32,200 nucleotides of DNA from an uncultured Prevotellaceae bacterium (GTDB lineage Bacteria > Bacteroidota > Bacteroidia > Bacteroidales > Bacteroidaceae): positions 1 to 32,200 of the forward strand of contig OMSJ01000015.1 of NCBI GenBank assembly GCA_900313705.1, read 5' to 3'. The number at the start of each line of letters is the position of its first letter. The first letter of the stretch is position 1. A program made the translations under genes and the position numbers. The notes beneath the pieces were generated by a model. The model did not search any database, was not told the DNA's origin, and worked only from the letters and a program-made list of their open reading frames with translations. Positions 5,385 to 26,091 of this stretch are shown here, piece by piece.

Positions 5385-8171
5385 ATGTTGACAGCAAATG
5401 AAATTCGCAATTCGTTTCTGAAATACTTCGAATCGAAAGGGCACAAGATTGTACCTTCTGCACCTATGGTGGTGAAGGACGACCCGACCCTGATGTTCAC
5501 CAATGCAGGCATGAACCAGTGGAAAGACATCATCCTTGGCACCCGTGACCCGGAGCCCCGCCGCCGTGCCGACTCGCAGAAATGCCTGCGCGTCAGCGGA
5601 AAGCACAACGACCTGGAGGAGGTAGGACATGACACCTACCACCACACCATGTTCGAAATGCTTGGCAACTGGTCGTTTGGCGACTACTTCAAGGAAGGTG
5701 CCATCGACATGGCGTGGGAATACCTCGTGGATGTGTTGAAGCTCGACCCCAAGGACCTCTATGTCACCGTCTTCGAGGGCTCACCCGAGGAAAACCTTGT
5801 CCGCGACGATGAAGCTGCAGGCTACTGGCTGAAGCACGTTCCCGCAGACCACATCATCAACGGTAACAAGCACGACAACTTCTGGGAAATGGGCGACACA
5901 GGTCCATGCGGTCCCTGCTCCGAGATACACCTCGACAGCCGTACGCCCGAAGAGAAAGCCAAAGTGCCCGGACGTGAGCTCGTCAACAAGGACGACCCGC
6001 AGGTCATCGAGATCTGGAACATCGTCTTCATGCAGTACGAGCGCAAGGCCGACGGACACCTCGAGCCTCTCGGCATGAACGTCATCGACACGGGTATGGG
6101 CTTCGAACGCCTCGTCCGTGCCATCCAGGGCAAGCACTCCAACTACGACACCGACGTCTTCCAGCCCATCATCCGCGCCATCGAGCAGCTTACAGGGCTG
6201 AAGTATTATTCCGAATACTCAGATAATTCCGATTACTCTGAGGACGTCAACGTTGCCATGCGCGTCGTTGCCGACCACCTGCGCACCATTGCATTCAGCA
6301 TTGCGGACGGTCAGTTGCCGGGCAACGCAAAGGCAGGTTACGTCATCCGCCGCATCCTGCGCCGTGCCGTGCGCTACGCCTATACCTTCCTCGGACAGAA
6401 GGAAGCCTTCGTCTATCGTCTGCTGCCCGTCCTCATTCAGGAGATGGGAGCAACCTATCCCGAACTGGAAGGTCAGCGCGAACTCATTACGAAGGTGATG
6501 AAGGAAGAGGAAGAGAGTTTCCTGCGTACACTCGAGACGGGCATCAAGCTCCTGGACGGTGTGATGAAGGAGGCAAAGGCTGCCGGACAGACAGAGATTG
6601 CCGGCGAAAAGGCTTTCACCCTCTTCGACACCTACGGCTTCCCCCTCGACCTCACAGAACTCATCTGTCGCGAGAACGGTCTCACAGTCGATGAGGCCGG
6701 CTTCAACGTCGAGATGCAGAAACAGAAGGAACGCGCCCGTAACGCTGCACAGGTTGAGGCAGGCGACTGGCAGACTCCAGACCCCTCTAAATCTCCCCTT
6801 AAAGGGGAGACTTGCGGCAATGAATCCTCCCCCTTTAAGGGGGACACAGAGGGGGTCTGCCAGTTCGTGGGTTACGACTTCACGGAATACACTTGCCACA
6901 TCGTCAAGTATCGCGAGGTGAAGCAGAAGAAGGGCGTTGTCTATGAAGCCATCTTCGACCAGACACCTTTCTACGGAGAGATGGGCGGCGAGGTCGGCGA
7001 CTCTGGCGTCATCTGTAACGAGCAGGAGACCATCAAGGTCCTCGATACCAAGAAGGAGAATGGCGTAAGCATCCATATCCTGGAGCGCATCCCACAGAAT
7101 CCCGCTGCTGAGTTCATGGCTTGCGTGGATGTGGAACGCCGCCGTGCTATCGAGGCCAACCACACTTGCACGCACCTCCTCGACCAAGCCCTCAAGGAGG
7201 TTCTTGGCGACCATGTGGAGCAGAAAGGTTCACTCGTAACGCCCGACTACCTGCGTTTCGACTTCTCGCACTTCGAGAAGGTAACGCCCGAACAAATCCG
7301 CGAGGTGGAGCACCTCGTCAACGAGCGCATCCGTCAGAACCTGCCTCTGCAGGAATATCGCGACACACCCATCGAGGAAGCTAAGAAGCTGGGCGCCATC
7401 GCTCTCTTCGGCGAGAAGTACGGCGACAAGGTGCGCGTCATACAGTTCGGTTCGAGCGTTGAGTTCTGCGGCGGCTGCCATGCCAGCAGCACAGGCTGCA
7501 TCGGCATGGTGCGCATCCTCTCCGAAAGCAGCGTGGCAGCTGGTGTGCGTCGTATCGAAGCCATCACAGGCAAAGCCGTCGAGGAACAGATGGACAGATT
7601 GCAGGACATGATAACAGGCTTGCGAGGTCTCTTCAACAATGCTCCCGACCTGGTCGGCACCATACAAAAGGCTATCAGCGACAACGCTGACCTGCGCAAA
7701 CAGGTGGAGGACGTCATGCGTGAGCGTGCTGCTGACCTCAAGAAGCAGATGCTTGCTGAGCAAAAGGAGATAAACGGCCTGAAGGTGCTGAGCGCCATCA
7801 CGCCTCTTGGCCCCGAGTTCGTGAAGGACATCGCCTTCCAGCTCCGCGCAGAAGTAGAGAATAGCATCGTCGTCATCGGTTCCGTGGCAGGCGGCAAGCC
7901 CCTCCTCACCGCAGCCGCTTCAGATGGTGCTGTAGCTGCAGGTGTGAACATCGGCAAGAACATCCGCGAAGCTGCCCAGCTCATGCAGGGCGGCGGTGGC
8001 GGTCAGCCCCACTTCGCCACAGCCGGCGGCAAGAACCCCGACAGTGCAACTCGGCCTTTCTCAGTTAAGGTCACACGGGACGTTCTGTTTTCTCCTTTTC
8101 GCTTGCAAGGAAGAGATTTTGCTCTACTGGCAAGAAATAGGGAGGAAAATGTGGGAAGAGTGCTTCGTTGA
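5385..8171 (+). CDS. alaS: Alanine-tRNA ligase, with two in-frame insertions and an atypical C-terminus
   Basis: This class II synthetase charges tRNA-Ala and edits mischarged Ser and Gly. The catalytic N-terminus starts [20 protein letters not shown] and carries [11 protein letters not shown] and [13 protein letters not shown]. The editing domain has HTCTH (H593, H597) and CGGCH (C695-H699), the expected zinc ligands. The C-terminal [18 protein letters not shown] is normal up to about residue 886. Oddities: residues 275-287 ([12 protein letters not shown]) come from an 18-bp tandem duplication. Residues about 465-492 (SPLKGE...SPFKGDTEG) are a palindromic element read in frame between AGDW and QFVGYD. 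Residues 887-928 look nothing like an AlaRS end and no other frame restores one. The core looks functional. Confidence 0.95.
6208..6243 (+). repeat. 18-bp tandem duplication inside alaS
   Basis: ATTCCGAATACTCAGATA (6208-6225) is followed by ATTCCGATTACTCTGAGG (6226-6243), 14 of 18 bases alike and in frame. It encodes most of [13 protein letters not shown] in a surface region between LTGLKY and [11 protein letters not shown]. Confidence 0.7.
6778..6859 (+). mobile_element. 82-bp MITE-like palindromic element, in frame in alaS
   Basis: The ends are CAGACCCCTCT and AGAGGGGGTCTG, inverted. Inside lie two palindromes (CTCCCCTTAAAGGGGAG and CTCCCCCTTTAAGGGGG) separated by a short spacer containing GGCAATGAATCCTCCCC. 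The rfbD copy has GGGAATGAAGCCTCCCC at the same place, which shows common descent. It carries no stop codon in the alaS frame. Confidence 0.8.
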
Positions 8172-19447: not shown

Positions 19448-20623
19448 TTAGCGGTTCTTGTACATTTCGTCGTAGTACTTCTCGTAGTCGCCGCTGGTGA
19501 TGTTGTCCATCCATTCTTCGTTCTCGAGGTACCACTTGACGGTCTTCTCGATGCCCTCTTCGAACTGTAGCGACGGCTCCCAGCCCAGCTCCTTCTGCAG
19601 CTTGGTGGAGTCGATGGCATAGCGTGCGTCGTGGCCCAGACGGTCTGTGACGTAGGTGATGAGGTCGAGGTCGGCTCCTTCGGGACGGCCCAGCAAGCGG
19701 TCCACCGTCTTGATGACTGTCTTGATGATGTCGATGTTCTTCCACTCGTTGAAGCCGCCGATGTTGTACGTCTCGGCTATCTGTCCGTGGTGGAAGATAG
19801 TGTCGATGGCGCGGGCGTGGTCCACGACGTAGAGCCAGTCGCGCACGTTCTCGCCCTTACCATAGACGGGGAGTGGCTTGCGATGGCGAATGTTGTTGAT
19901 GAAGAGGGGTATCAGTTTCTCTGGGAACTGGTAGGGGCCATAGTTGTTGGAGCAGTTGGTGACGATGGTCGGCATTCCGTAGGTGTCGTGGAAAGCGCGG
20001 ACGAAGTGGTCGCTGGAGGCTTTCGAAGCGGAGTATGGGCTGTGGGGGTTGTACTTCGTTGTCTCATAGAAGAAGTCCTTGCCGTAGGCCAGGTGATGCT
20101 CCGAACTGCTGGCTGTCGTGGTGAACGGCGGCTTGATGCCTTCGGGATTGGTCATTTCGAGAGCCCCATACACCTCGTCGGTGGAGATGTGGTAGAAGCG
20201 TTTGCCTTCGTACTTCTCTGGAAGGCTTTCCCAATAGAGCTTGGCGGCCTGCAGGAGGGAGAGTGTGCCCATGACGTTTGTGCGGGCGAAGGTGAAGGGA
20301 TCCTTGATGCTGCGGTCCACGTGGCTCTCTGCTGCGAGGTGGATGATGCCGTCCACCTTCTCGTCCTGCATCAGCTTCAGGAACGCGTCGAAGTCGCAGA
20401 TGTCCATCTTCACGAACTTGTAGTTGGGCTTGTCCTCGACGTCCTTGAGGTTGGCGAGGTTGCCGGCATAGGTCAACTTGTCGAGGTTGATGATTTTGTA
20501 CTCAGGGTATTTGTTCACGAAGAGGCGTACGACGTGGCTTCCGATGAAACCCGCTCCGCCTGTGATAACGATGGAAAGACCCTCTCGGTCCCCCTTAAAG
20601 GGGGAAGAACTGTTGATACTCAT
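19448..20623 (-). CDS. rfbB: dTDP-glucose 4,6-dehydratase RfbB, start supplied by a palindromic element
   Basis: RfbB converts dTDP-glucose to dTDP-4-keto-6-deoxyglucose, the second step to dTDP-L-rhamnose. Seen: Rossmann motif GGAGFIGS (22-29), the TDEVYG signature with D149/E150, YSASK (Y197, K201) and the ending EEGIEKTVKWYLENEEW. The first 16 residues (SINSSSPFKGDREGL) are not family sequence; they are encoded by the end and palindrome of the element at 20575-21041, and the start ATG lies one base after the DUF559 stop. A native RfbB normally begins just before IVITGGAGF. The enzyme core looks complete. Last gene of the rhamnose operon. Confidence 0.95.
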   Translation of the reverse strand: MSINSSSPFKGDREGLSIVITGGAGFIGSHVVRLFVNKYPEYKIINLDKLTYAGNLANLKDVEDKPNYKFVKMDICDFDAFLKLMQDEKVDGIIHLAAESHVDRSIKDPFTFARTNVMGTLSLLQAAKLYWESLPEKYEGKRFYHISTDEVYGALEMTNPEGIKPPFTTTASSSEHHLAYGKDFFYETTKYNPHSPYSASKASSDHFVRAFHDTYGMPTIVTNCSNNYGPYQFPEKLIPLFINNIRHRKPLPVYGKGENVRDWLYVVDHARAIDTIFHHGQIAETYNIGGFNEWKNIDIIKTVIKTVDRLLGRPEGADLDLITYVTDRLGHDARYAIDSTKLQKELGWEPSLQFEEGIEKTVKWYLENEEWMDNITSGDYEKYYDEMYKNR

Positions 20624-21041
20624 ATTAGATTAGATGCTTTTTTAATTCGTTAATCATATTGTCTGTGTCATATAAGACTTGTTCGTTGGTGAACCGCAGA
20701 ACCTTGTATCCTTTTTGTTCCAGCCAGTTTTGTCTCGTTTCGTCCTCCTTTTGTTGTTCTTCTGTGAAGTGGTATCCTCCGTCTATCTCCACTATCAACA
20801 TTGATTTCCGAAAGAAGAAGTCAACGATATACTCTCCAATAATGTATTGCCTTCTGCACTTTTGTCCCAATCCGCTACCTTTAGCCATTTGCCAGAAAAC
20901 AGATTCTGCTTCTGTCTGATTGCTTCGGTTTGCCTTTGAATGGTTCTTTAGGAGTTCATATTCTATTATGTCTGCCGTTTGCCATTCCATTGTTTTCAGC
21001 TTGTGTTCTCCCCCTTTAAGGGGGAGTTAGAGAGGGTCTTT
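20575..21041. mobile_element. Putative 467-bp DUF559-carrying element with inverted ends
   Basis: Left end AAAGACCCTCTC (20575-20586), right end GAGAGGGTCTTT (21030-21041), a perfect 12-bp inverted pair. Each is followed inward by the same palindrome in inverted form (CCCCCTTAAAGGGGG at 20590-20604 and CTCCCCCTTTAAGGGGGAG at 21008-21026). The DUF559 gene fills the interior. No target duplication was checked. Elements with these ends but no gene occur in alaS and rfbD. Mobility is inferred, not shown. Confidence 0.65.
20625..20990 (-). CDS. DUF559 endonuclease-fold protein inside the rhamnose operon
   Basis: 121 residues of the DUF559 family, related to Vsr/PD-(D/E)XK nucleases. Seen: TEAESVFWQMAKGSGLGQKCRRQYIIGEYIVDFFFRKSMLIVEIDGGYHFTEEQ read as separate motifs, with VDFFF and VEIDGGYH as the likely acidic active-site strands, then a C-terminal LEQKGYKVLRFTNEQVL. 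It is a known short standalone family; whether members cut DNA is not settled. Its TAA stop ends one base before the rfbB ATG, and it starts 36 bp after the rfbC stop. It has no role in rhamnose synthesis, so its place there is best explained as an insertion. See the element entry. Confidence 0.9.
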   Translation of the reverse strand: MEWQTADIIEYELLKNHSKANRSNQTEAESVFWQMAKGSGLGQKCRRQYIIGEYIVDFFFRKSMLIVEIDGGYHFTEEQQKEDETRQNWLEQKGYKVLRFTNEQVLYDTDNMINELKKHLI

Positions 21042-21587
21042 GAAGGGACTTTCAAAGTCTTTGAGCAGGGGATGCTTCGTGTCCTTTTCGCTCAGGATGG
21101 CCTTCTCTGTGGGGATGCGCCAGTCGATGCCGAGGCTGAGGTCAGTGATGGAGATGCCGCCGTCGGCTTCGGGGTGGTAGAACTCATCGCACTTATACTG
21201 GAAGACGGCTGTCTCGCTCAGCACGGCGAAACCATGTGCGAAGCCCTTCGAGATGAAGAACTGCCGATGGTTGTCTTCCGTGAGTTCGACGGCGACGTGC
21301 TGCCCGTAGGTGGGCGACCCTTTGCGTATATCGACGGCTACGTCGAGGACGGCTCCCCGGACGCATCGAACCAGTTTGCTCTGCGTGAAGGGCGGGCGCT
21401 GGAAGTGCAGTCCGCGCATGACGCCGTACTGCGACATGCTTTCATTGTCCTGCACGAACTGGATGGGGCCTACTTTCTCTTCGAACTCCCTCTGCGAGAA
21501 GGATTCGAAGAAGTACCCGCGGGCATCCTTGAATATCTTGGGCTCTATGATGAGTAAGCCTTCTATTGGGGTTTTGATTATTTGCAT
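21027..21587 (-). CDS. rfbC: dTDP-4-dehydrorhamnose 3,5-epimerase RfbC
   Basis: A cupin-fold epimerase that acts on dTDP-4-keto-6-deoxyglucose, the third step to dTDP-L-rhamnose. Seen: KIFKDARGYFFESF, catalytic H61 in MRGLHFQRPP, VRGAVLDVAVDIRKGSPTYG (D82, D86) and FQYKCDEFYHP (Y131). The last four codons and TAA stop (KDPL stop) are made by the right end of the DUF559 element, so the native C-terminus was trimmed or extended by it. 186 residues is the usual size. It is 106 bp after rfbD, across a heptamer inverted repeat. Confidence 0.95.
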   Translation of the reverse strand: MQIIKTPIEGLLIIEPKIFKDARGYFFESFSQREFEEKVGPIQFVQDNESMSQYGVMRGLHFQRPPFTQSKLVRCVRGAVLDVAVDIRKGSPTYGQHVAVELTEDNHRQFFISKGFAHGFAVLSETAVFQYKCDEFYHPEADGGISITDLSLGIDWRIPTEKAILSEKDTKHPLLKDFESPFKDPL

Positions 21588-21698: not shown

Positions 21699-22677
21699 TT
21701 CTTTTTTCTGAGATGATGTTCTTAATGCACTTTTCCAGCGAATCGACCCAGTACGGCACCTTGATGCCGAAGGTCTCGCGGATGCAGCGTTTGTCGAGGA
21801 CGGAGTAGGCGGGACGCTTCACGGGGCTGGGATATTCTGAGGAATAGCAGGGTTGCACGTCGCAGTCCTTGTGTCCGGCGATGCGGGCAATCATCTGCGT
21901 GAAGTCGTACCACGAGCAGACGCCTTCGTTGGAGTAGTGGTAGATGCCTTGTACGGGCTTCTGGAGGATGACTTGTATCGCGCGAGCCAGGTCGAGGGCA
22001 TACGTCGGGGTGCCGCATTGGTCGAAGACAACCTTGAGCTGCGGCTTGGTGGCCGTGAGCTGGAGCATCGTCTTGCAGAAGTTCTTACCGAACTCGCTGT
22101 AGAGCCACGCCGTGCGGATGATGATGAAGCCGCCAGAACCCTCTAAACCTCCAGACCCTTCCAAACCTCCCCTTAAAGGGGAGGCTTCATTCCCTGGATT
22201 CTCCCCCTTTAAGGGGGAGTTAGAGAGGGTCTTTATTATTCGCTCCTCTCCCATCTTCTTCGTTTCGCCATAGACGCCGGTGGGCGTGCCCTGCTGGTCG
22301 GGGCGACAAGGCGTGTTGTAAGGCTCCTTGCCGAAGACGTAGTCGGTGGAAATCTGCACGAGCCATCCGCCCACTTCCTTCATGGCCTTGGCCAGGTTCT
22401 CGGGCGCTGTGGCGTTGAGTTTCTCGGCGAGAGCGCGGTTCTCGGGCGCCTCGGCAGCATCGACGTTGGTCCATGCGGCGCAGTTCACGATGGCATCTAC
22501 GTTGTTTTCCCTCACCATCGTGCGGATGGCATCGAGGTCGGTGATGTCGAGGAATACGGTCTCTACGCCCTCTTGCTGAGTGACGTCGGTGAAGATATAG
22601 CGGTCGGCAGAGTCACGGGCAACGATGCGCATTTCGTTGCCCAACTGTCCGTTTGCACCTGTGACGAGTATGTTCAT
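21694..22677 (-). CDS. rfbD: dTDP-4-dehydrorhamnose reductase RfbD, with in-frame element
   Basis: RfbD makes dTDP-L-rhamnose with NAD(P)H. Seen: GANGQLG (7-13), NCAAWTNVDAAE, STDYVFG (110-116), YGETK (Y136, K140), IIRTAWLYSEFGKNF, and the C-terminal RPAYSVLDK. Residues about 149-182 (NSPLKGENPGNEASPLRGGLEGSGG...) are an insertion encoded by the element at 22134-22234, placed between KKMGEERIIKT and FIIIRTAW, with no stop in that frame. 327 residues is longer than the usual roughly 285-295, matching the insertion. It is the first gene of the operon; rfbA is not upstream of it in this window. An in-frame insertion in an otherwise intact Rossmann enzyme suggests the loop tolerates it. Confidence 0.95.
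   Translation of the reverse strand: MNILVTGANGQLGNEMRIVARDSADRYIFTDVTQQEGVETVFLDITDLDAIRTMVRENNVDAIVNCAAWTNVDAAEAPENRALAEKLNATAPENLAKAMKEVGGWLVQISTDYVFGKEPYNTPCRPDQQGTPTGVYGETKKMGEERIIKTLSNSPLKGENPGNEASPLRGGLEGSGGLEGSGGFIIIRTAWLYSEFGKNFCKTMLQLTATKPQLKVVFDQCGTPTYALDLARAIQVILQKPVQGIYHYSNEGVCSWYDFTQMIARIAGHKDCDVQPCYSSEYPSPVKRPAYSVLDKRCIRETFGIKVPYWVDSLEKCIKNIISEKRS
22134..22234 (-). mobile_element. About 101-bp MITE-like palindromic element, in frame in rfbD
   Basis: On the reverse strand it opens AAAGACCCTCTC (22234-22223), identical to the DUF559 element end, then CTCCCCCTTAAAGGGGGAG, a spacer with GGGAATGAAGCCTCCCC, and a second palindrome. The far end is imperfect because a roughly 20-bp stretch ending GGTTCTGG / GGGTCTGG is duplicated. 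The spacer matches the alaS copy. Confidence 0.8.
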
Positions 22678-22937: not shown

Positions 22938-24515
22938 TCAGGCATCGGAGAGCGCCGAGTCGGGCCAGTTGACGAGATAGACTTGCTCCGTAGCGCGGGT
23001 GATGGCGGTGTAGAGCCAGCGGAAGTAGTCGGGCGAGAGCATCTCCTCCGTGATGTATCCCTGGTCGATATAGACGTGTTCCCATTGTCCGCCCTGCGCC
23101 TTGTGGCAGGTGACGGCATAGGCATACTTGATTTGCAGGGCGTTGTAGTAGGGGTCTTCGCGCAACTTCTTCATCCTGTCGCGCCGGTTTGTCAGCTCGG
23201 GATAGTCGTCCCAGACGCCCTGGAAGAGCGCTTCCTGCTGCTCTTTGGTCAGGGCAGGCGCTTCGCTCTGCAGAGTGTCGAGCAGGATGGTGACGTCCAT
23301 CTCCTTGTTGTCGTAGTCGGGGAACACAATCGTGGCGTCGGCAAACCTAAACCCGTAGAACGACCGCTCGTTCCTCAATCGCCGCACCACCGCAACGTCG
23401 CCGTTGGCGATGAAAGAGAAAGGGGCAAGGGGCAAGGGGCAGGGGGCAAGAGGATTGCTGCTTTCATGCTCCTTGCCCCTTGCTCCTTGCCCCTCTATGG
23501 TATTCTCTTGCTCCTTGCCCCTTGCTCCTTGCCCCTCTATGGTATTCTCTTGCTCCTTGCCCCTTGCTCCTTGCCCCTGTTCTCGGTCAGTCCAGAAGTA
23601 GTTATTCTTCGCCACCATGATGAAGTCTCCGCTGGAGAGCTCTTCCTCAAGGTCAAGGATGCGGCTCCGAATACCATTATTAAATATGTTGGCCCGCTTG
23701 TTGCTGCGCGTCACGACTATCGTGCCGTCGGTGCCGTACTTGCGATAGCTGTCCTCGAGGGCTTCGATGAGTTCGTCGCCCGGGAGCACCCTGACATCGG
23801 GGAAGCTCTTGCCCCTGAGCTTGGGGAACTCGAACATTTCACCTTCCTGGATGAGGCTGCGGAGCATCGTGGCGTTCCAGAGGATGCCCGACTCCTCGAG
23901 CTGGCGCACCACTTCCGTCAGGCAGCACTCCGTCACCTCCATGCCGTAGCCCTCGAGCATCATCTTGTCCAGCGCAGGACTCTCTTCCTCGCCGACGGGC
24001 GGCAACTGCGCCGTGTCGCCCACAAGGATGAGGCGGCAGCCTTCGCAGGAATAGACGTAGTGCATCAGGTCGTCGAGCAAACGCCCTGTCCCGAAGATGG
24101 AGCTGCCGCCCGACTCGTTGGCTATCATCGATGCCTCGTCCACGATGAAGAGCGTGTCCTGCCTGAGGTTGACGTCGTTCTGGAAGACATCCATCTCCGT
24201 GATGGACTTCTGCCTGTATATCTTCCTATGTATAGTATATGCGGGCGCGCCTGCGTACGAGGACAAGACCTTAGCGGCGCGTCCCGTCGGAGCAAGCAGC
24301 ATGATGCGCTGCCCGAGCTGTTGCATCGTGCGCACCAAAGCAGCCAGAAGCGACGTCTTGCCCGTGCCGGCATAGCCCTTGAGCAGGAATACTTCATCCT
24401 GCTCTCGCGACAACACAAAGTCGGAGAGCAAGGAAATGACTTTTTCCTGCTCTTTCGTCGGATTATGGACGAAGTTCTCCCTTATAAGGAGCCCTAAATC
24501 TTCACTTATTGCCAT
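22938..24515 (-). CDS. ATP-dependent RecD-like DNA helicase, with a repeat insertion
   Basis: A 525-residue superfamily 1B helicase. Walker A GYAGTGKTS (47-55), PTGRAAKVLS, Walker B VDEASM (125-130), the QLPPVGE motif, and the C-terminal UvrD-like motifs VTCHKAQGGQWEHVYID and YTAITRATEQVYLVNW are present. Such stand-alone RecD-like helicases help in DNA repair or plasmid/phage interplay. Residues about 311-366 are an insertion made of heptamer repeats (GQGARGKEQENTIE repeated) between KNNYFWTDRE and FSFIANGDVAVV. It is convergent with nothing; downstream lies the 32-bp inverted repeat and the rhamnose operon. Confidence 0.93.
   Translation of the reverse strand: MAISEDLGLLIRENFVHNPTKEQEKVISLLSDFVLSREQDEVFLLKGYAGTGKTSLLAALVRTMQQLGQRIMLLAPTGRAAKVLSSYAGAPAYTIHRKIYRQKSITEMDVFQNDVNLRQDTLFIVDEASMIANESGGSSIFGTGRLLDDLMHYVYSCEGCRLILVGDTAQLPPVGEEESPALDKMMLEGYGMEVTECCLTEVVRQLEESGILWNATMLRSLIQEGEMFEFPKLRGKSFPDVRVLPGDELIEALEDSYRKYGTDGTIVVTRSNKRANIFNNGIRSRILDLEEELSSGDFIMVAKNNYFWTDREQGQGARGKEQENTIEGQGARGKEQENTIEGQGARGKEHESSNPLAPCPLPLAPFSFIANGDVAVVRRLRNERSFYGFRFADATIVFPDYDNKEMDVTILLDTLQSEAPALTKEQQEALFQGVWDDYPELTNRRDRMKKLREDPYYNALQIKYAYAVTCHKAQGGQWEHVYIDQGYITEEMLSPDYFRWLYTAITRATEQVYLVNWPDSALSDA
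23422..23578 (-). repeat. Heptamer repeat array with 42-bp higher-order units, inside the helicase gene
   Basis: On the + strand four GGGGCAA-type heptamers (23422-23449), a short spacer, then inverted CTCCTTG/CCCCTTG heptamers in two complete 42-bp units (23469-23510, 23511-23552) and a partial third (23553-23578). 42 bp is both 6 heptamers and 14 codons, so unit number keeps the frame. The two halves are inverted and could form a stem. Confidence 0.88.
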
Positions 24516-24608: not shown

Positions 24609-25298
24609 ATGAAAAAGGGAATAAATGTTATTTTAGGTATCTGTGCAGTCGGTTTGCTCTTCGTTTGCTGGCGCAGTATTCGTGATACCGAAGACTTCGA
24701 CGCAACCGTCGCAGCCAGAGAGAATGTGGTTAAAGCACGCCTGATGGAGATCCGCAGTGCAGAGGAAGCTTACAAGGCTCAGCACGACGGAGTCTATTGC
24801 TCAGACTGGTCTGTCCTCATCAACTTCGTCAAGAACGGTAAGCTGCCCGTTATTATGAAGCAGGGCGTGCTCACCGAAGACCAGATGGAGAAAGGCCTCA
24901 CCGAAAGCAAGGCAGCAGCCATCGTCAACAGCGGCGACCAGGCTGCCATCGCAGCTAACGGACTCCAGAACTTCCGTCGCGACACCATTTGGGTTTCCCT
25001 ACAGGACTCCCTCTACAACTATGAAGGGTTCGAGGCAGACTCCATGCGCTACATTCCCTTCTCACAGGGCGACACCTTCGAACTCGTTGCCTGCCCCAAC
25101 ACCACACGCTCGGGCAGCATCATCCAGGTCATGGAGTGCAACGCACCGGACAGCAGCTTCCTCAAGGGAATGGGAAAGGCCGGCAACCGCCTCATCTACA
25201 ACCGCAACGAAGAAGCTAACGCCAAGGGCGCATACGCAGGTCTGAAGATTGGCGATGCCGGTAACAACTGGAACAACAATGCCGGCAACTGGGAGTAA
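24609..25298 (+). CDS. Membrane-anchored protein with pseudopilin-like features
   Basis: 229 residues. N-terminal membrane segment (about 5-22: INVILGICAVGLLFVCW). After it, RLMEIRSAEEAYKAQHDGVYCSDWSVLINFVKNGKLP resembles the N-terminal half of type II/IV pseudopilins, where an extended helix is followed by an early loop. No prepilin peptidase site is visible. The C-terminal part is polar with many Asn/Gly (GDAGNNWNNNAGNWE). Its function is unknown; the same order followed by DUF3822 and rsmD is what I would expect for a conserved Bacteroidetes trio. Its end overlaps the next gene. Confidence 0.75.
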   Translation: MKKGINVILGICAVGLLFVCWRSIRDTEDFDATVAARENVVKARLMEIRSAEEAYKAQHDGVYCSDWSVLINFVKNGKLPVIMKQGVLTEDQMEKGLTESKAAAIVNSGDQAAIAANGLQNFRRDTIWVSLQDSLYNYEGFEADSMRYIPFSQGDTFELVACPNTTRSGSIIQVMECNAPDSSFLKGMGKAGNRLIYNRNEEANAKGAYAGLKIGDAGNNWNNNAGNWE

Positions 25299-26091
25299 TT
25301 CATTCACAAACTATAGACTGTCCATCCGCCTCGGTGCGGATGGATTTTCTTTTTCTGTAGGCAGCACGCCCGACGGCTCTGTCGTGCAGGAAGACCGCTT
25401 TCCCGTCACCGACCCGGCAGCAATGGCCGACGTCCTAAGGCAGGCTCTGCGGAAACCCTACCTCATGGACTACCGCTTCCAGAGCGTAGAGCTCGTCACG
25501 GAAGGCCCCTCCACCATCGTACCCCTCGAACACTTCAACAAGAGCGACATGCTGGCCTTCTACCGGCTCTGCTTCCCTCCATCTGCCACCGTCCAAGGCT
25601 CAACGGTCAATGCTCAACGGTCAATGGTCAATGGTCAACGGTCAATGGTCAATGGTCAATGGTCAATGGCCGACATGCAGTACCAGATACTCTCGTCCGT
25701 CGAAGCAGTCATGCTTTTCCGCTTAGACCAGAGCCTCCTCCGCATCGTGCAGGAATGCTATCCCGACGTCAAGGCGTGCTGCGCAGACGCACAGGAACTG
25801 GAACGGATAGCAGCCATGCAGGAGAAACGTCCTGCGCCTGAGGATGCGCAGCAGCAAGACGTGCATCTCCATGTCGCAGAGCACAGCATCTTCATCGCCG
25901 TCTTCGCCCGAAGCAAGTTGCTCTACGCAGCTTCTCAGCCTGCAGCGAACGACGCCGACCGCACCTTCCTGCTCCTCGGCATCTGGAAAGCCCTCGACCT
26001 GAACCCACAACGCGACGTCCTCCATCTCGAAGGCGCATCAAGAGAACTGCAGAAGACCATCGGAGAGTACATACTTAATGTTGACTATTAG
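25279..26091 (+). CDS. DUF3822 family protein, with a heptamer-repeat insertion
   Basis: About 270 residues with start at 25279 (MPATGSNSFTNYRLSIRLG), overlapping the upstream gene by 20 nt; an in-frame ATG at 25249 gives 10 more. DUF3822 is a Bacteroidetes family of unknown function. Seen: RLSIRLGADGFSFSV near the start, PLEHFNKSDMLAFYRLCFP, the acidic DVKACCADAQELERI and the C-terminal SRELQKTIGEYILNVDY. Residues about 107-132 (GSTVNAQRSMVNGQRSMVNGQWSM in part) are encoded by heptamer repeats and are not expected in the family. Confidence 0.85.
   Translation: MPATGSNSFTNYRLSIRLGADGFSFSVGSTPDGSVVQEDRFPVTDPAAMADVLRQALRKPYLMDYRFQSVELVTEGPSTIVPLEHFNKSDMLAFYRLCFPPSATVQGSTVNAQRSMVNGQRSMVNGQWSMADMQYQILSSVEAVMLFRLDQSLLRIVQECYPDVKACCADAQELERIAAMQEKRPAPEDAQQQDVHLHVAEHSIFIAVFARSKLLYAASQPAANDADRTFLLLGIWKALDLNPQRDVLHLEGASRELQKTIGEYILNVDY
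25598..25667 (+). repeat. Ten tandem GGTCAAT-type heptamers inside the DUF3822 gene
   Basis: Ten consecutive heptamers with GGTCAAT as consensus (GCTCAAC and GGTCAAC variants). Three heptamers equal seven codons, so the protein shows the repeat MVNGQRS. A change of one or two heptamers would shift the frame. Confidence 0.92.

Follow-up and report, generated by a model that had tools for sequence, protein, structure and literature searches.

A gene for a DUF559 protein lies between rfbC and rfbB in the DNA of an uncultured Prevotellaceae bacterium, enclosed by inverted repeats, and this arrangement raises the question of whether gene and repeats together constitute a mobile element and whether the DUF559 protein moves it. 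The stretch analysed, hereafter the window, extends over 32,200 nucleotides and carries the following features:

20575..21041, minus strand: the whole element, REP - DUF559 - inverted REP, with AGACC..GGTCT as conserved edges (20577-21039), shared by homologous copies elsewhere that lie at unrelated sites
20575..20607, plus strand: left REP unit, tail outside and hairpin inside, through which rfbB reads in frame
20625..20990, minus strand: DUF559 (PF04480) gene, 121 aa, from open reading frame and Pfam match
21008..21041, minus strand: right REP unit, inverted, with the rfbC stop codon (21027-21029) within it
19448..20623, minus strand: rfbB, dTDP-glucose 4,6-dehydratase, by position and an Epimerase/GDP_Man_Dehyd match
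21027..21587, minus strand: rfbC, dTDP-4-dehydrorhamnose 3,5-epimerase, from open reading frame and Pfam, terminating in the right REP
6779..6858, plus strand: gene-less REP doublet in alaS, in frame and translated
22153..22232, minus strand: gene-less REP doublet in rfbD, in frame, with an additional partial unit at 22135-22152

A preliminary description of this DNA had placed the DUF559 gene between a 12-mer and its exact inverted copy, each backed inwards by a palindrome, and this proved accurate: AAAGACCCTCTC occurs exactly at 20575-20586 (plus strand) and 21030-21041 (minus strand), with the palindromes CCCCCTTAAAGGGGG at 20590-20604 and CCCCCTTTAAGGGGG at 21010-21024 and the DUF559 reading frame between them. 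For the copies in alaS and rfbD, which were said to carry the same ends and palindromes, the in-frame palindrome pairs were confirmed and the exact 12-mer was found at only one of the four outer ends (22223-22234), the other three being variants of it. The palindromes, allowing up to two mismatches, occur six times in the window against 0.04 expected from shuffles; at the same tolerance the 12-mer taken alone is not significant in the window (4 against 3.2 expected, three of the four exact). Throughout the assembly to which the window belongs (G000, 2.83 Mb, 80.5% complete) the palindrome core is present in 153 copies with at most one mismatch, as against 2 of the reversed pattern, and a second DUF559 copy, interrupted by an internal stop, has inverted units of a second type on both sides. 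The ATG of rfbB (20621-20623) lies inside the element, which supplies this start codon and about 15 codons, the left repeat being translated as SSPFKGDREGL; congeners with an empty site show a short start ahead of (I)VITGG.

Each repeat unit consists of a hairpin and a tail that mirrors the G-strand of the hairpin, and it is a known and widespread bacterial repeat, the intrastrand triplex motif. Its cross-phylum form, ACCCTCACCCC-NNN-CCCTCTCCC-loop-GGGAGAGGG, is the G/C-rich motif (TM) described by Holder et al. 2015 (PMC4666352). The mirrored third block was recovered, at a score of at least 0.85, in 113 of 141 units from the bacterial family and 96 of 125 from mixed phyla, where shuffled tails gave 10 and 9, in a test that covers units with a G-rich tail and lets A-to-T pass in the third block; outward-pointing tails are found in 122 of the 141 and 69 of the 125. 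As described in that source, TM or TM_ECO (earlier PIT) shares with the present repeats the sequence of their cross-phylum form, the three-block architecture (a C-block, a G-block and a third block that mirrors the latter) and the paired inverted copies, and differs in being known in E. coli without a mobility gene nearby, whereas here it is tied to a nuclease gene. The authors of PMC4666352 report 23 copies in E. coli MG1655 at unstable sites, term their origin unclear, and state that neither a transposase nor an integrase remnant was found in the vicinity; they also report triplex formation by TM_ECO single strands in vitro, without in vivo support.

The preliminary description expected such ends to accompany DUF559 genes elsewhere, and for most of the genes scored they do. 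A flank score was defined as the best inverted match between the 250 bp to the left and to the right of a gene, with a threshold of 16 chosen here, and it was applied to five samples which are best-scoring lists rather than random draws. The family test took in 108 of 126 strong places, with 90 of 99 genes used in the first set (five at contig or locus edges and four duplicates were dropped) and 18 of 20 in a further one; 29 of 30 genes came from other Bacteroidota (the 30 best of the phylum search), 28 of the 30 best from the cyanobacterial phylum, and a mixed sample comprised the best 80 of 579 relatives retrieved with one peptide pattern. Judged by record titles, this last sample covers about 15 or more phyla, including Methanophagales archaea, cyanobacteria, proteobacteria, planctomycetes and candidate phyla. 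Pooled over the five samples, matching inverted flanks were found for 187 of 245 DUF559 genes and at 10 of 1,220 sham positions. The individual values were 72/90 against 1/445 shams of the same loci in the first family set, 14/18 against 0/90 in the further family loci, 19/29 against 1/145 in other Bacteroidota, 57/80 against 6/400 in the mixed phyla (14/27 for loci with Bacteroidota titles and 43/53 for the remainder) and 25/28 against 2/140 in the cyanobacterial phylum; a single gene, entered in two samples as L247 and L289, is below threshold in both. A GC-rich hairpin on both sides was seen in 131 of 198 cases (67/90 family, 45/80 mixed, 19/28 cyanobacterial) and in 1 of 167 control pairs.

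Exchanging the right flanks among the first family loci reduced the passing pairs to 82 of 450, and this excess of real over swapped pairs implies that each gene tends toward its own version of the repeat. Repeat and protein similarity were correlated over 83 loci (Mantel rho 0.40, the top of 500 permutations being 0.16, with copies at orthologous sites uncorrected), and also after removal of six members, and these six only, of a second DUF559 subfamily (rho 0.30 against 0.19). This second subfamily (RRxLRKxxTPAEATLW-like; L048, L068, L096, L099-L107) has other hairpins on its flanks, such as CTCTGTTTATAGAG and CCTAAGTTAGG, and in those of its loci that were judged for read-through no long frame crosses the right repeat. 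In searches of open-licence PMC papers, no account linking DUF559 to these repeats was found.

The limits of the unit emerged from copies at different places. Genome G021 carries two DUF559 copies, L075 and L087, which lie at unrelated sites separated by about 2.5 kb and match over 508 bp with 87% DNA identity, and L047, from another genome of genus g21, matches L075 across 508 bp. Both matches start and stop at the outer repeat edges, (A)GACC..GGTC(T), and no homology was detected in the 1 kb outside them; by their sequences, L087 and L047 occupy one common site and L075 another. Since homology between copies at unrelated sites ends at the repeat edges, repeat, gene and repeat form a discrete unit. 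More generally, of 183 DUF559 pairs with at least 60% amino acid identity, 139 occupy non-homologous sites, 42 share a site, and 2 show a match on a single side. Even the most similar copies at separate sites reach just 87% DNA identity, and no recent event was therefore seen. An apparent recent transposition in G166, the near-identical pair L249/L250, was rejected as one locus on two contigs, an assembly duplicate, and L115/L120 were set aside as a boundary pair, their flanks being repeat arrays that are partly homologous.

The rfbC-rfbB junction itself was compared among ten congeners and, as the preliminary description had anticipated for a mobile element, seven are empty (spacing 32-51 bp), two carry the element (472 bp) and one, L151, retains a deletion stub (164 bp); the gene order is not fixed. 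The stub comprises both ends and only the first DUF559 codons, an internal deletion, and it shows a route by which a gene-less copy can arise. Further junctions, readable in only part of 30 loci, are empty in L167 and hold other repeats in L159 and L164. Relative to the empty sites the element replaces the stretch that holds the stop codon of rfbC and the start codon of rfbB and brings new ones, and no target-site duplication is visible at this one site.

Among 77 family elements with enough room for a judgement, a same-strand frame of at least 100 codons ends at the left unit in 54 (22 on the opposite strand), and one of at least 120 codons stays open through the right unit in 62 (21 on the opposite strand). 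Moreover, the whole element can occur as a stop-free in-frame insert, with DUF559 recognised by Pfam within LeuRS (L111, L114), HsdM (L130) and MetH (L119) and within HsdR at two places (L116 at one; L118, L122 and L131 at the other), which provides cases of a selfish nuclease domain carried without splicing in housekeeping and restriction enzymes. Only three of these eight, L118, L122 and L130, pass the flank threshold; the other five, L111, L114, L116, L119 and L131, are among the 58 of 245 genes that score below it, and their ends are thus more decayed or diverged. The in-frame domains resemble an intein without splicing. A separate observation concerns the HsdR of L131 (175-3315, plus strand), in which the DUF559 domain (443-547) is accompanied by a GIY-YIG nuclease domain (251-317), placing two homing-type kinds of nuclease within one restriction enzyme.

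The DUF559 protein of the window matches PF04480 with E 8.5e-29, the domain spanning residues 15-119 of 121, and residues invariant among 42 homologues include T26, E29, D57, E68, D70, G71, H74, D83, R86 and R99. Profile comparison links DUF559 to NGO0050 (3hrl; E 3.5e-32) and to the homing endonuclease I-Bth0305I (3r3p; E 6.4e-8), and a Foldseek search with an AlphaFold2 model (42 sequences, pLDDT 90, pTM 0.82) ranked the same two first and second (E 2.6e-6, and E 6e-5 with TMt 0.77, respectively), with weaker matches, at E above 0.001, to PvuRts1I, an R2 retrotransposon protein, Vsr, TnsA and others. PF04480 was found in all 31 aligned proteins, and the Y1 transposase family is absent from the 12 families listed for them.

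The preliminary description had likened the arrangement to that of RAYT transposases and REP sequences, which is apt as a likeness, although DUF559 is no RAYT. As described in PMC3116915 and PMC3733652, REPIN-RAYT systems likewise show inverted REP doublets with a hairpin and a conserved tail, many gene-less copies, an enzyme gene beside or between its own repeat type, and covariation of repeat and enzyme. They differ in that the enzyme is a Y1 transposase rather than a DUF559 nuclease, in that RAYTs are described as single-copy whereas DUF559 is often multi-copy, and in their GTAG tag, where the ends here are of the AGACCC, AGCCCC, GGCCTC or CCCTCACCCC types. CGTC-tagged REPs are reported in PMC3733652 as lacking a dedicated transposase. 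With the EDxHD homing endonucleases (I-Bth0305I, PDB 3r3p; PMC3943268) DUF559 shares the catalytic domain, by profile and fold; it differs as a bare domain of 121 aa that has repeat ends and, by comparison with what is described there, neither an extended DNA-binding region nor an intron or intein. A cyanobacterial DUF559 gene has been assigned to the EDxHD homing family in PMC9403480, the available part of which does not mention repeats. The DUF559 element works in the manner of both systems, yet it lacks the RAYT features of Y1 domain, GTAG tag and single copy, and the extended DNA-binding region of homing enzymes, and we count it as a member of neither group. Palindromic repeats that lie in frame in protein genes and are translated have been described for Rickettsia palindromic elements (PMC10969869, which in its available part leaves a nuclease gene unmentioned), and such insertion in reading frames was found here in rfbD, LeuRS, HsdR, HsdM and MetH.

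We consider that the block between rfbC and rfbB is probably a mobile element of about 470-510 bp, with DUF559 between inverted REPs as the putative mobilising nuclease of a REP-like family. Sequence comparison has established its boundaries, its empty and deleted sites, its presence at different sites, the match of repeat type to DUF559 type and, as detailed below, a repeat load that follows DUF559. Thus the association and the unit proposed in the preliminary description are upheld by comparison, while the action of the enzyme on the element, that is, DUF559 itself doing the moving, is what we infer. DUF559 may recognise the folded REP, or a site nearby, and then break DNA, whereupon repair would copy the element across, with a short target stretch replaced and not duplicated; the gene-less doublets would be the non-autonomous counterpart of the element, in the role that REPINs have for RAYT genes. 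Because its ends are able to provide stop and start codons and to be translated through, insertions between operon genes or within genes are tolerated. Against this reading weigh the 58 genes below the flank threshold, the outward tail in only 69 of 125 units beyond the family, the one-sided repeats at E. coli ycjD and the exceptions in repeat load given below; moreover, hydrolytic nucleases are not known to transpose DNA on their own. A wider proposal, for which we find the case evenly balanced, is that DUF559 nucleases are dedicated mobilisers for REPs of the triplex type in bacteria and archaea alike, forming a second class of REP enzyme that is free of transposases, in which a homing domain takes a folded repeat, hairpin or triplex, as its address and in which spread through coding sequences is possible because the element ends are translatable.

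The main rival, which we consider unlikely, holds that DUF559 is a free-standing homing endonuclease that invades existing REP doublets, cutting them and being copied in with the REP arms as homology, and that the repeats spread by another route. The homing type of the nuclease domain is in keeping with this, as is the preponderance of gene-less palindromes over gene-bearing copies (153 sites and two DUF559 genes in G000). The seven empty rfbC|rfbB sites argue against it, since none holds a doublet, and so does the gene-less L151, a deletion product in which the DUF559 start is retained. A second line of evidence is the repeat load, measured as the excess of CTCCCN{2,10}GGGAG over the same pattern read backwards. 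DUF559 is present in 70 of 201 family genomes at E ≤ 0.001, with strong matches in 61, of which 32 hold two to seven strong places. Up to ten matches per genome were recorded overall. The load climbs with copy number, against the expectation of the rival, the correlations being uncorrected for phylogeny: the family median is 47 in the 61 genomes with DUF559 and 2 in the 140 without (rho 0.62), that of the Bacteroidota sample 8 (n=125) and 2 (n=170; rho 0.45), and that of the cyanobacterial phylum 24 (n=73) and 2.5 (n=72; rho 0.52). High loads are similarly distributed, with an excess of at least 80 in 25/61 against 3/140 family genomes, of at least 20 in 33/125 against 7/170 of the Bacteroidota sample, and of at least 40 in 29/73 against 4/72 of the cyanobacterial phylum; within genus g1 the range is 9 to 294 in nine DUF559 genomes and -7 to 16 in four without. 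Repeat-rich genomes without DUF559 do occur, as the homing rival allows: three in the family lack a strong match (G071, 163; G017, 148; G145, 126), in which DUF559 may have been lost, may be absent from the assembly, or may be replaced by another mover, and 10 of the 72 cyanobacterial genomes without it have an excess of at least 20. Conversely, DUF559 occurs without excess in 15 of 61 family genomes (under 15), 12 of 73 of the cyanobacterial phylum (under 5) and 6 of 20 genomes of other phyla.

It is rather improbable that the REPs are moved by another enzyme, such as a RAYT-type Y1 transposase, with DUF559 as cargo. Similar REPINs go together with RAYTs in other bacteria (PMC3116915), and G000 has one strong Y1_Tnp match, but Y1_Tnp does not predict the load: the 34 genomes that match it strongly have a median excess of 15 and the 167 others one of 5 (p 0.40). 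By contrast, DUF559 is predictive where strong Y1 is absent (median 40, n=49, against 2 in 118 genomes with neither). Moreover, G078, second-highest in repeat excess, has no Y1_Tnp match, and a single DUF559 reading frame fills the element of the window. Highly improbable, in our view, is a nuclease of the host, for repair or specific to DNA structure (Vsr-like), with triplex or hairpin DNA as its substrate and retained beside the repeats without any mobile element; Vsr is among the weaker fold matches and instability of TM sites has been reported for E. coli (PMC4666352), whereas the patchy and multi-copy occurrence of DUF559, the sharp boundaries at different sites and the in-frame copies within LeuRS, HsdR, HsdM and MetH speak against it. 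An origin by chance, or as ordinary terminator hairpins next to a gene of vertical descent, is refuted as a general account and has almost no prospect of being correct, given the flank scores of real and sham positions, the same-strand frames that cross the right repeat in 62 of 77 elements and the gene-less copies within alaS and rfbD, even though termination has been presumed for the TM copies of Enterobacter sp. 638 (PMC2869309).

The pairing of DUF559 with these repeats across many bacteria and some archaea suggests that an enzyme family helps to spread a widespread repeat class of unexplained origin. If this is true, it would explain where TM repeats come from and why TM sites are unstable, with YcjD as the E. 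coli member, and the link would also account for translated repeat peptides, such as PLPLGEDLGEG, within bacterial proteins. DUF559 is still without a function in Pfam, and the link renders the question testable in laboratory E. coli, through ycjD, and with a purified protein of 120 residues.

YcjD of MG1655 is a DUF559 protein (E 1.4e-49); the E. coli genome used as a control in the profile searches, its strain not given, had no PF04480 match despite this. In MG1655 a degenerate repeat unit is found at the stop codon of ycjD, with a clear copy of TM some 160 bp beyond, so that repeats occur on one side of the gene only, and the module of both repeats and ycjD (about 640 bp, L269:1664-2321) fills the fabI-sapF gap. 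In two further E. coli strains, which lack ycjD, an efflux operon takes its place, with homology breaking at the module edges. They had been considered as empty sites and were rejected as such, the difference being a replacement in one direction or the other. The presence of ycjD in place of eefRABCD is described in PMC12817139. Coverage of ycjD and its flanks reached at least 80% in 3364 of 5426 E. coli genomes, and that of the fabI side in 5372.

Other repeats also enter coding sequences in and around the window. The helicase reading frame (AAA_30 / UvrD_C_2; 22938-24515, minus strand) contains a translated repeat, EQGQGARGKEQENTIEGQGARGKEQENTIE..PLAPCPLPLAPF, which differs from the AGACCC family. 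The loop of rfbD is a hot spot, with the same insert in L140, another repeat in three congeners, a third in two, and a short form in seven. A DUF3822 reading frame (25249-26091, plus strand) bears NAQRSMVNGQRSMVNGQWSM, and the similar MVNGQWSMVNGG occupies the rfbD loop in L141 and L151, which suggests that these soft spots admit yet another family of repeats.
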